A DNA stretch of 64,000 bases from Ensifer adhaerens (GTDB lineage: Bacteria; Pseudomonadota; Alphaproteobacteria; Rhizobiales; Rhizobiaceae). This document shows positions 1 to 7,926 of the stretch, in pieces (the first letter of the stretch is position 1; each line of letters opens with the position of its first letter). The notes below the pieces were generated by a model. It saw nothing but the letters and a program-made list of their open reading frames with translations, did no database searches and had not been told where the DNA came from. The position numbers and the translations under genes are program-made. The DNA is taken from contig OCMG01000004.1 in the NCBI GenBank assembly GCA_900215285.1, positions 1,297,501 to 1,361,500 of the forward strand. The letters run 5' to 3'.

Positions 1-694
1 TCTCCTCTCTGACGACGGCACAGCTTGCCGTGGTCACGACCGGCCAGATGGCGGCGTTGACCTCCACCCAGCTTGCCGCGATGACCACCACGGATGTGGC
101 CGCGCTCACCACGGGCCAGCTGGCCGCAATCAGCACGACGGCGATCGGCGGCATGACCACCGCGCAGATCGGTGCTCTGACGACGACGCAGGTGGCCGCC
201 CTGTCGACGGTTTCGGTCGGAGCCCTCAGCTCGGCCCAGATCGGCGCGATGAACTCCGCCGATCTCGCCGCCATGACCACGGGTGACGTTGCCGCGATCA
301 GCACGAAGGCGATTACCGGCATCTCCACGACGAACTTCGCGACGCTGTCGACGGCTCAGGTGGCTGCGTTGACCACGGCGCAGATGGGGGCCCTGACGAC
401 GGGTCAGGTTGCCGCGCTGACGACGGCGCAGCTGGCTGTGGTCACCACGGCACAGATGGGTGCGCTCTCGTCGACCCAGCTCGCCGCCATGACCACGACG
501 GATGTCGCGGCTCTGACCACGACACAGCTCGCCGCGGTCAAGTCCACCGCCATTGCAGGCCTCACCTCCGCCCAGGTCGGCGCGCTCACCACGGGTCAGG
601 TGGCTGCCCTGACCACCAGTCAGGCCAGCGCACTCACCTCTACGCAGATGGCCGCGATCTCCTCCGCAAACCTCGCCGTCCTCACCACCGGCAA
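1..694 (+). repeat. Long near-identical duplication, copy 1
   Basis: Bases 1-694 match 2857-3550 with a single mismatch (618 A versus 3474 G), while neighbouring 408-bp blocks differ at many third positions. The offset is 2856 bp, exactly seven super-repeats. The match continues to the left edge of the window, so its true length is unknown. Confidence 0.9.
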
Positions 695-3600
695 CGTCGC
701 GGCATTGAGCACGAAGGCTGTTGCCGCTGTCTCTACCGCCAATTTTGCCACGCTCTCCACCGGCCAGGTCGCAGCCCTTACAGCGGCCCAGGTCGGTGCA
801 CTCACGACCGGCCAGGTCGGGGCCCTCACGACGGCGCAGCTCGCTGTCGTGACCACAACGCAGATCGGCGCACTCTCTTCGACGCAGCTGGCCGCGATGA
901 CCACCACGGATGTGGCAGCTCTGTCGACCACGCAGTTTGCAGCGGTCAAGTCGACCGCCATTGCGGGCCTCACCTCTGCCCAGGTCGGTGCTCTGACCAC
1001 GGGCCAGGTCGCCGCGTTGACGACGGGTCAGGCCAGCGCTCTGACGTCGCCGCAATTGGCGGCCATCTCGTCCGCCAACCTCGCGGTCATGACGACGGGT
1101 AATGTGGCAGCCCTCAGCACCAAGGCAATTGCCGGTCTTTCGTCGACCAACTTCGCGACCCTGTCCACCAGTCTGATCGCAGCGCTCACCTCGTCGCAGG
1201 TCGGCGCCCTGACGACAGCTCAGGTCGGCGCGCTGACGACGGCGCAGCTTGCCGTGGTCACGACCGGCCAGATGGCGGCCCTGACTTCTTCGCAACTTGC
1301 CGCCATGAACACCGCAAATGTCGCGGCGCTCACGACAGGACAGGCCGCCGCGATCAGCTCCAACGCCATTGCCGGCCTCACCTCTGCCCAGGTCGGCGCT
1401 CTGACCACGGGTCAGGTGGCTGCCCTGACGACGGGCCAGGCCGGTGCGCTGACCTCGACGCAGATGGCGGCGATCTCGTCGGCCAACCTTGCCGTCCTCA
1501 CGACGGGCAATGTCGCGGCGCTCAGCTCGAAGGCGATCGCCGGTCTTTCGTCGACCAACTTTGCGACCCTGTCCACCGGCCAGGTCGCAGCTCTGACCGC
1601 CACCCAGGTCGGCGCTCTGACGACGGGCCAGGTTGGCGCGCTGACGACGGCGCAGCTCGCTGTCGTGACCACGACGCAGATCGGTGCGCTCTCGTCGACG
1701 CAGCTCGCCGCCATGACCACGACGGATGTCGCGGCTCTGACCACGACGCAGCTCGCCGCGGTCAAGTCCACGGCCATTGCAGGCCTCACCTCTGCCCAGG
1801 TCGGCGCGCTCACCACGGGGCAGGTCGCTGCCCTGACGACGGGCCAGGCCAGCGCGCTCACCTCGACGCAGATGGCGGCGATCTCGTCGGCCAACCTTGC
1901 CGTCCTCACGACGGGCAATGTCGCGGCGCTCAGCTCGAAGGCGATCGCCGGTCTTTCGTCGACCAACTTCGCGACCCTGTCCACCGGTCAGGTCGCAGCC
2001 CTCACCGCCACGCAGGTCGGCGGGCTGACGACCGGTCAGGTCAGCGCGCTGACGACGGCACAGCTGGCCGTGGTCACGACCGGCCAGATGGCGGCGTTGA
2101 CCTCCACGCAGCTTGCCGCGATGACCACCACGGATGTGGCCGCGCTGACGACCGGTCAGGTCGCCGCGATCAGCTCGAACGCAATTGCCGGGCTGACCTC
2201 CACGCAGGTCGGCGCTCTGACCACAGGTCAGGTTGCTGCTCTGACGACGGGTCAGGCCGGTGCGCTCACCTCCACGCAAATGGCGGCGATCTCGTCTGCT
2301 AACCTCGCCGTTCTCACGACCGGCAATGTCGCGGCGCTGACCACCAAGGCCGTTGCCGGTCTTTCGTCGACCAACTTCGCCGCGCTGTCGACCGGTCAGG
2401 TCGCAGCCCTCACCGCCACGCAGGTCGGCGCTCTGACGACGGGTCAGGTCGGCGCTCTGACGACGGCGCAGTTGGCTGTGGTCACCACGACGCAGATCGC
2501 GGCACTGAACTCGACGCAGCTCGCTGCAATGACCACGACGGATGTCGCGGCTTTGACCACGACGCAGCTCGCCGCGGTCAAGTCCACCGCCATTGCAGGC
2601 CTCACCTCCGCCCAGGTCGGCGCTCTGACCACGGGTCAGGTGGCTGCCCTGACGACAGGCCAGGCCAGCGCGCTCACCTCCACGCAGATGGCGGCGATCT
2701 CGTCGGCCAACCTTGCGGTTCTCACGACGGGCAATGTCGCGGCGCTGAGCACCAAGGCGATTGCCGGTCTTTCGTCCACCAACTTCGCCACGCTGTCCAC
2801 CGGCCAGGTCGCGGCTCTGACCTCCACGCAGGTCGGCGCTCTGACGACGGGCCAGGTCTCCTCTCTGACGACGGCACAGCTTGCCGTGGTCACGACCGGC
2901 CAGATGGCGGCGTTGACCTCCACCCAGCTTGCCGCGATGACCACCACGGATGTGGCCGCGCTCACCACGGGCCAGCTGGCCGCAATCAGCACGACGGCGA
3001 TCGGCGGCATGACCACCGCGCAGATCGGTGCTCTGACGACGACGCAGGTGGCCGCCCTGTCGACGGTTTCGGTCGGAGCCCTCAGCTCGGCCCAGATCGG
3101 CGCGATGAACTCCGCCGATCTCGCCGCCATGACCACGGGTGACGTTGCCGCGATCAGCACGAAGGCGATTACCGGCATCTCCACGACGAACTTCGCGACG
3201 CTGTCGACGGCTCAGGTGGCTGCGTTGACCACGGCGCAGATGGGGGCCCTGACGACGGGTCAGGTTGCCGCGCTGACGACGGCGCAGCTGGCTGTGGTCA
3301 CCACGGCACAGATGGGTGCGCTCTCGTCGACCCAGCTCGCCGCCATGACCACGACGGATGTCGCGGCTCTGACCACGACACAGCTCGCCGCGGTCAAGTC
3401 CACCGCCATTGCAGGCCTCACCTCCGCCCAGGTCGGCGCGCTCACCACGGGTCAGGTGGCTGCCCTGACCACCGGTCAGGCCAGCGCACTCACCTCTACG
3501 CAGATGGCCGCGATCTCCTCCGCAAACCTCGCCGTCCTCACCACCGGCAATGTTGCGGCGCTCAATGCCAAGGCGCTGGTGGGTCTTTCGACGACAAACT

Positions 3601-6769: not shown

Positions 6770-7926
6770 CGGGGGGCAAGGGAAGGGTTGCTGCGGTCGG
6801 CGCGGGACTGACCGGCGCGGTGATTGCGCGTGACCTCGCCGAAGCGGGCCTTGACGTCGATGTTTTCGACAGCCGCAGCCATGTCGCCGGCAATTGCTTC
6901 ACCGAGCGGGATGGCGAGACGGGTGTGCTGGTGCATGTCTACGGGCCGCATATCTTCCACACCGACGATGAGGAGGTGTGGAACTACGTCAATCGCTACG
7001 AGACCTTCCTGCCCTACAAGAACCGGGTGAAGACGACGGTGGGGGGGCAGGTTTATTCGCTGCCGGTCAACCTGCACACGATCAACCAGTTCTTCGGCAA
7101 GACGCTTCGGCCCGACGAGGCCAAGGCCTTTATCGAGGCGCAGGCGGACACGTCGATTGCGGAACCGCAGACCTTCGAGGAGCAGGCGCTGCGGTTTGTC
7201 GGGCGCGCGCTCTACGAGGCGTTTTTCGAGGGCTACACCCGCAAGCAATGGGGTTGCGCGCCTTCGGATCTCCCGGCCTCGATCCTGAAGCGCCTGCCGG
7301 TGCGCTTCAACTACGACGACAATTATTTCTTCCATCGGTTCCAGGGCATGCCGGAAAACGGCTATACGGCGATGGTGGAACGCATTCTCGATCATCCGCG
7401 TATCCGCTTGCGCCTGGGCACGACATTCCACCGCAGGCAGGCGGCGGATTACCATCATGTCTTCTACAGCGGGCCGCTCGACGGCTATTTCGACTATGAG
7501 GATGGCCGGCTCGGCTATCGCACGCTGGATTTCGAGCGTTTCACGTTCAAGGGCGATTACCAGGGCTGCGCGGTGATGAATTACGGGGAGGCGTCCGTGC
7601 CTTACACGCGCATCACCGAGCACAAGCACTTTGCGCCGTGGGAAACGCATGAAGGTTCGGTCTGCTATCGCGAATTCGCACGCGCCTGCGAGCCGGGCGA
7701 CACGCCCTATTATCCGATCCGCCTTGTCGAAGAGAAGGCGCTTCTGGCGCACTATGTCGAGAAGGCCAGTGCCGAGACCGGCGTAACCTTTGCCGGACGG
7801 CTGGGAACTTATCGCTATCTCGATATGGATGTGACCATCCGCGAGGCGCTGGACACGGCGCGACGCTTCAGGACAGCAACCGACAAAGGCGAGACCATGC
7901 CTGCCTTTGTGGTGGCCATGGGGTGA
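6760..7926 (+). CDS. glf: UDP-galactopyranose mutase
   Basis: Flavoenzyme converting UDP-galactopyranose to UDP-galactofuranose, the donor for galactofuranosyl transfer in cell-surface glycans. The FAD-binding loop [13 protein letters not shown] is near the N-terminus. The family motifs [29 protein letters not shown] and YYPIRL follow in the usual order, and the length of 388 residues is typical. ATG 6760 overlaps the 3' end of the glycosyltransferase gene (stop 6767-6769), so the two are likely translationally coupled; a TTG at 6739 would overlap more and has no better ribosome site. Pairing with a GT41 enzyme hints at a dedicated glycan pathway. The family call is secure; the role in modifying the repeat protein is inference. 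Confidence 0.93.

Follow-up and report, generated by a model that had tools for sequence, protein, structure and literature searches.

A cytoplasmic glycosyltransferase of family GT41 probably O-glycosylates an exported octapeptide solenoid, mainly at position 3 of its repeat unit and usually in company with a linked UDP-sugar enzyme. The locus under study lies at the left end of a 64,000-nucleotide stretch of Ensifer adhaerens (contig OCMG01000004.1 of assembly GCA_900215285.1, positions 1,297,501 to 1,361,500; hereafter the window). It comprises, in this order and all on the forward strand, the genes for an ALTTAQ octapeptide-repeat protein (3..4523), a GT41 enzyme with tetratricopeptide repeats (TPRs; 4715..6769) and the UDP-galactopyranose mutase Glf (6760..7926). 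This gene content and order, with glf overlapping the GT41 gene, had been read from the DNA letters in the original prediction and were borne out by matches to PF20080, to PF13844 and TPR families, and to PF03275 and TIGR00031, respectively. The repeat had also been suggested as the GT41 substrate, which is now supported by co-occurrence of the two genes, their linkage within 2 kb and the retention of Ser/Thr at position 3 of the repeat.

The open reading frame (ORF) of the repeat gene is open at the window's left edge, where the C-terminal 1,506 of 2,367 amino acid residues are encoded; the true start is an ATG at C4:1294920, 2.6 kb upstream of the window. The product consists of about 300 copies of the octad L-[S/T]-[S/T]-x-Q-[VIL]-A-A, repeated from the N- to the C-terminus with a spacing of 8 in 261 of the 277 steps between consecutive matched units. 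An 800-residue piece matched PF20080 (ALTTAQ_rpt) in 31 stretches (E = 4e-165; 535.6 bits versus a cut-off of 26.4) and matched no other family. About 500 Thr/Ser sites had been predicted; there are 454 in the window part and 716 in the whole protein, the gene extending upstream. The protein has 33 acidic and 30 basic residues, zero Cys and zero Trp. Its termini are conserved, and the C-terminus ends ...DQVAAVVVAYQAI. No signal peptide was apparent by eye, and a literature search found no paper naming the ALTTAQ repeat. The repeat gene has a higher-order period of 17 octads. It also contains an exact 2,085-bp duplication at an offset of 2,856 bp (7 x 408 bp), involving the C4:1296033 region and window positions 3..4208, which indicates recent segmental growth in 17-octad units. 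The genome carries at least two ALTTAQ genes. The second one, on C2, encodes 2,577 residues (L010:3873-11606), was of equal length, with similar flanks, across the five members of the genus that were read, and had no GT41 gene within the fetched stretch.

The GT41 enzyme of the window is 684 residues long (alternative start at 4661). It matched PF13844 with E = 1.8e-73 and 248.1 bits (cut-off 25), TPR_11 with 27.6 bits (26.8) and TPR_14 with 25.1 bits (23.5). It also aligned with human OGT and XcOGT in PDB. H272 and K441 in the alignment, which was made for the window enzyme only, were opposite an OGT His and an OGT Lys that we take to be catalytic-type residues. Glf matched PF03275 (E = 2.1e-78; 263.2 bits), TIGR00031 (304.3 bits versus a cut-off of 303.75) and UDP-galactopyranose mutases in PDB (down to E = 1.1e-172). 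The glf start codon (ATG at 6760) overlaps with the stop codon of the GT41 gene. Across the genome, the window copy was the only glf match, and there were five GT41 genes, the window copy and four further ones.

A total of 297 Rhizobiaceae genomes were searched for the GT41 orthologue (E ≤ 1e-130, three candidates per genome being scored) and PF20080 (E ≤ 1e-6). The orthologue was found in 30 genomes and PF20080 in 47, and all of the 30 were within the 47. The original prediction had named a GT41/glf pair that regularly occurs without the repeat as the contrary pattern; the orthologue was found in 0/250 ALTTAQ-negative and 30/47 ALTTAQ-positive genomes. The hypergeometric probability was 2e-29 by genome and 2e-11 by genus (13 genera within 22 of 109), kinship being uncorrected in both. 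The link between the repeat and the GT41 is not due to chance. Similarly, a smaller sample of 61 relatives had PF20080 in 11 and the GT41 orthologue (45% identity or more) in nine, all within the 11. G002, from the genus of the source strain, had neither.

The ALTTAQ gene was within 2 kb of the GT41 gene in 28/30 genomes, where several of the repeat genes were fragments at contig ends. By hand tally of the 30 genomes, the repeat gene was upstream on the same strand in 12, divergent in eight, last in the order GT41-glf-repeat in five, convergent in three and absent from the locus in two. The genes stay close while their order varies, which speaks against simple inheritance as neighbours. glf was in the cassette of 29/30 genomes; it lay beyond the repeat gene in G314 and did not appear in the stretch fetched for G230. 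In addition to the repeat gene and the GT41 gene, only glf and a family termed F5 recurred in more than six of 29 lineages. F5 is a protein of ~430–445 residues encoded between GT41 and glf in 9/30 genomes (e.g., L134:11536-12870 and L233:14045-15331), and PF12248 was the sole family match in the two members scanned. By eye, F5 carries a DDD stretch resembling that of a GT-A transferase, and we read it as a putative glycosyltransferase.

For 70 repeat proteins or fragments of at least 20 octads each, the octads were then read in register: 33 linked to the GT41 gene (15 genera), 23 unlinked in genomes with the GT41 (11 genera) and 14 from genomes without the orthologue (8 genera). Proteins counted as linked were those encoded within 3 kb of the GT41 gene, together with those of G495 and G591; of the 23 unlinked ones, seven are 4.3–5.4 kb from the GT41 gene, and L119 and L102:11044 are possibly pieces of linked genes. 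Absence of the orthologue was taken from the Rhizobiaceae survey for 12 genomes and from a separate search for G360. Plasmid loci, L232 among them, stand outside these statistics. The genus medians of Ser/Thr at position 3 were 0.81 for linked proteins, 0.70 for unlinked ones and 0.41 for those from genomes without the GT41 (linked versus none, p = 4e-6; unlinked versus none, p = 5e-4; linked versus unlinked, p = 0.013). The corresponding medians at position 2 were 0.76, 0.77 and 0.80. Among the other positions, only position 1 differed at 0.05 (p = 0.004), with values of about zero in all groups. Ser at position 3 accounted for 0.06 of the pooled octads without the GT41 and 0.26 in linked proteins. 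Under four regroupings, p ranged from 4e-6 to 4e-5 for linked versus no GT41, from 3.5e-4 to 0.006 for unlinked versus no GT41 and from 0.014 to 0.056 for linked versus unlinked. Within genomes, the position-3 value was higher in linked than in unlinked proteins in 17/18 (p = 4e-4; 9/10 by genus) and, minus the doubtful pieces, in 11/12 (p = 0.002). Independent contrasts gave p = 1.8e-6 against GT41 in the genome and 0.0096 against linkage for position 3, versus 0.47 and 0.9 for position 2; their tree was based on ~140 N-terminal residues of 64 proteins, two of which, L109 and L110, are internal fragments that carry the label unlinked. The position-3 contrast also held within Rhizobiaceae alone. 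Both O-linked and HMW1C-type N-linked glycans had been considered in the original prediction. The position-specific retention of Ser/Thr supports O-linked acceptors in the repeat, and N-linkage is disfavoured by the depletion of NxS/T sequons, of which the repeat protein (protein A) has three compared to 15.6 in shuffles.

The last 288 residues of the repeat protein (3657..4520) were modelled with 17 relatives by AlphaFold2 as a solenoid of short helices, with a mean predicted local distance difference test score of 96.4 and a predicted template modelling score of 0.85. Nearly every octad of the model has a short helix over positions 3–7, of which position 3 is the first residue, and position 2 is the N-cap, the residue before the helix. 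In the first 34 octads, position 2 is never helical and position 3 is helical in 94%. The best self-similarity offset was 17 octads in 40/73 long sequences, some loci being counted twice. Several repeat features had a 3.40-octad period, suggesting that a turn of the superhelix takes about 3.4 octads.

Outside Rhizobiaceae, PF20080 (E ≤ 1e-8) was found in 6/385 genomes of a class-wide alphaproteobacterial sample, the source genome included. Thus, the repeat is rare elsewhere. Linkage was found in other alphaproteobacterial families in G046, G523, G495, G591 and Pseudoroseomonas. G046 and G523 have the GT41 gene next to the repeat gene. For G495 and G591, the distance from the repeat gene is ~6 kb for the clade-member GT41 gene and ~4 kb for a second GT41 gene. 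No GT41 gene was found in the fetched stretches around the repeat genes of G360 and the second loci of G495 and G523, and no repeat ORF was found by octad pattern in G461. The 50 cassette-type GT41s formed one clade with a support of 93 in the Shimodaira-Hasegawa-like approximate likelihood ratio test, which is below the 95 mark and comes from a quick tree with long branches of outgroup paralogues. This clade did not include the second GT41s of G495 and G591, and the tree was built without the Pseudoroseomonas enzyme.

A UDP-glucuronate decarboxylase gene was linked in four of these loci, those of G495, G591, G523 and Pseudoroseomonas, and glf was not found in their fetched stretches. The decarboxylases of G523 and G495 matched UXS1 in PDB with E = 6e-127 and 2e-107, respectively. 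That of Pseudoroseomonas was identified by its name in the Prokaryotic Genome Annotation Pipeline, and that of G591 by a tblastn match over 98 residues at the locus edge. This replacement of glf in other families is the basis for assigning a donor role to the linked sugar gene. The sugar supply of the original prediction is supported in the form of a linked nucleotide-sugar gene, which is not present throughout: glf was found in the cassette of 29/30 genomes and in 16/21 named loci, and the decarboxylase took its place in four loci outside Rhizobiaceae. Moreover, the cassettes of G495, G591 and Pseudoroseomonas (L188, L190 and L228) contain genes for HlyD and an HlyB-like ATP-binding cassette (ABC) protein. 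HlyD scored over the cut-off of TIGR01843 in the two tested, and the best family of the ABC protein was TIGR01846, below its cut-off. No ABC/HlyD genes were recognised in the window cassette. The genes of these relatives' cassettes, rather than those of the window, suggest export of the repeat protein by type I secretion. In Pseudoroseomonas, the repeat gene is broken up into several frames (L228:4615-9738).

A set of 21 named loci came from Rhizobium, Agrobacterium/Allorhizobium, Sinorhizobium, Ciceribacter, Shinella and unnamed Rhizobiales; 17 of them had an ALTTAQ ORF within the fetched flank. The other four were those of Allorhizobium terrae, A. vitis, Rhizobium sp. C1 and L140. A. terrae and A. 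vitis have ALTTAQ ORFs of ~3,090 residues elsewhere, probably on the same contig, judging by the contig number. Rhizobium sp. C1 kept only an unlinked paralogue. In A. terrae, a 2,016-residue ORF with Cadherin-like repeats and an autotransporter barrel recognised by eye precedes the GT41 gene in the repeat gene's place (L125:3340-9387). In PLSDB, the GT41 was found in 12 plasmid records at E ≤ 1e-100. Ten of these were fetched; nine had an ALTTAQ ORF by octad pattern, within 1 kb of the GT41 gene in seven and 5–6 kb from it in two (Niveispirillum, apparently the same as G495, and Pseudoroseomonas). The tenth was that of Shinella PSBB067, which has a Ser/Thr-poor PF20080 protein next to the GT41. 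In Rhizobium sp. CCGE531, curlin and csgH genes adjoin the cassette (L227:14880-21232).

The GT41 could instead be a flagellin glycosyltransferase like FlmG of Caulobacter crescentus, with the repeat gene merely a frequent neighbour. FlmG is a cytoplasmic TPR and GT-B enzyme acting on flagellins (PMC7591256). The cassette was among flagellar/chemotaxis genes in 9/30 genomes of three genera (L143, L201, L208, L210, L211, L104, L204, L209 and L213), either as cheD-cassette-fliF or between fliP/flagellin genes and flagellin/motB genes. The same setting was found in Pseudorhizobium flavum and Shinella PSBB067, and such placement may point to a different export route or a different substrate. However, the 250 ALTTAQ-negative Rhizobiaceae genomes, many of which are surely flagellated, had no orthologue, and 21/30 cassettes had no flagellar-cluster match in the fetched stretches with the probes used, apart from a single mcp-like match in G312 and, in G008, the mcp that belongs to the probe itself. 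Moreover, the position-3 signature is located in the repeat, and the GT41 gene near fliF in G021 is a different one that groups with other paralogues. A flagellin substrate is unlikely.

It is quite unlikely that the GT41 and Glf modify a polysaccharide, lipopolysaccharide or another adhesin and are linked to the repeat through a shared surface-gene island. Glf is best known from polysaccharides, an autotransporter-like ORF precedes the GT41 gene of A. terrae, where the ALTTAQ gene is elsewhere, and curli genes are near one cassette. However, no family but GT41, glf and F5 recurred as stated above, the association of repeat and GT41 crosses families with different sugar genes, and a clear response to the presence of the GT41 is seen at position 3 alone. 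The position-3 difference could also reflect ALTTAQ sub-clades or composition, with the GT41 as a chaperone through its TPRs. Genomes without the GT41 are largely from other genera, the contrast tree is based on ~140 residues of repeats and linked proteins are also richer in Ser/Thr overall (p = 0.003). Nevertheless, a material shift is confined to position 3, the contrast persists within genomes, within Rhizobiaceae and after independent contrasts, and the window GT41 retains the His and Lys positions of catalytic type, which makes this explanation highly improbable.

Several observations weigh against O-glycosylation of the repeat protein by its linked GT41. The orthologue was absent from 17/47 ALTTAQ genomes, and in G003 and G312, GT41-glf is retained where no repeat gene is nearby, the ALTTAQ genes of these genomes being unlinked. 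The contrast between linked and unlinked proteins is weak (p = 0.013 to 0.056 by grouping), and g17 shows no such difference (0.68 versus 0.70). A PF20080 protein of Shinella PSBB067 (L232) adjoins the GT41 and has only 16% Ser/Thr, few of them at position 3; it was missed by the octad pattern because it is poor in Ser/Thr. The L140 metagenome-assembled genome (4.2-kb contig) has the GT41 and no PF20080 match. glf was not found with the G046 cassette or in the fetched stretches of L126, L128, L130 and L139, and the L140 locus is cut; cassettes without glf show that it is dispensable, and decarboxylase cassettes are few. No exporter gene recurred around the Rhizobiaceae cassettes in 29 lineages. 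Finally, the glycan is a proposal from genome comparison.

If the repeat protein is the substrate, the N-terminal TPRs of the GT41 would bind it in the cytoplasm, as in FlmG, and the enzyme would O-glycosylate Ser/Thr of the solenoid, mainly at the third residue of the octad, which is the second T of ALTTAQ and begins each short helix. The linked UDP-sugar enzyme, where present, would supply the donor or the next sugar: Glf would provide UDP-galactofuranose (UDP-Galf) in most Rhizobiaceae cassettes and the decarboxylase UDP-xylose in some other families. The repeat protein would exit without signal-peptide cleavage, most probably through the type I route as in the relatives with ABC and HlyD genes, as a long, densely glycosylated rod. 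We infer glycosylation itself, the identity of the sugar, the export route in the source strain, the surface location and the role, which may be attachment or aggregation. It is possible, if doubtful, that the GT41 uses whichever UDP-sugar the linked gene makes and places hundreds of Galf or xylose residues directly on position-3 Ser/Thr. To our knowledge, neither protein O-galactofuranosylation by a GT41 nor use of UDP-Galf by a GT41 has a precedent.

A 10-bp G+C-rich stem directly after the repeat stop codon (4552..4574, forward strand) is a possible terminator or attenuator. The fold of 4524-4620 had z = -3.08 and was matched by 2/200 shuffles; there is no clean T run, and the stem was not among the calls of a consensus terminator scan. 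It may separate transcription of the repeat gene from that of the downstream genes.

Gram-positive serine-rich repeat adhesins are highly repetitive, Ser/Thr-rich exported proteins with their own transferases (GtfA/GtfB) and an accessory Sec system. The ALTTAQ system would resemble them in having its own transferase and differ from them in their Gram-positive hosts and accessory Sec. Similar to OGT, XcOGT and SPINDLY in domain plan, the window GT41 conserves an OGT His and Lys; however, the His of OGT's DGIHIL stretch is D337 in the window enzyme, and the donor is not readable from sequence. FlmG shares the cytoplasmic TPR and GT-B O-glycosyltransferase and the exported target, its N-terminal domain binding exported flagellins (PMC7591256), whereas a giant octapeptide solenoid is proposed as the substrate of the window enzyme and a UDP-sugar gene is linked. 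HMW1C also acts, as a GT41, on a large exported protein, the HMW1 adhesin; it is N-linking and HMW1 uses two-partner secretion (PMC3012730), whereas sequons are depleted here. Similarly, TibC and Aah are dedicated enzymes that hyperglycosylate the exported TibA and AIDA-I, with another transferase family, another sugar and an autotransporter substrate (PMC4358343); the ALTTAQ protein is an end-to-end repeat. An autotransporter substrate of the TibC/AIDA-I type was rejected, as the repeat runs from the N- to the C-terminus and the 800-residue piece matches only PF20080.

These results propose a testable function for the Pfam repeat family PF20080, with acceptor residues named at single-position resolution. 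The natural pairs with different sugar genes offer a way to study the donor choice of GT41 enzymes. If the proposal is true, a solenoid with regularly spaced sugars would make a useful scaffold, and in plant- and soil-associated bacteria it would be a candidate surface factor.

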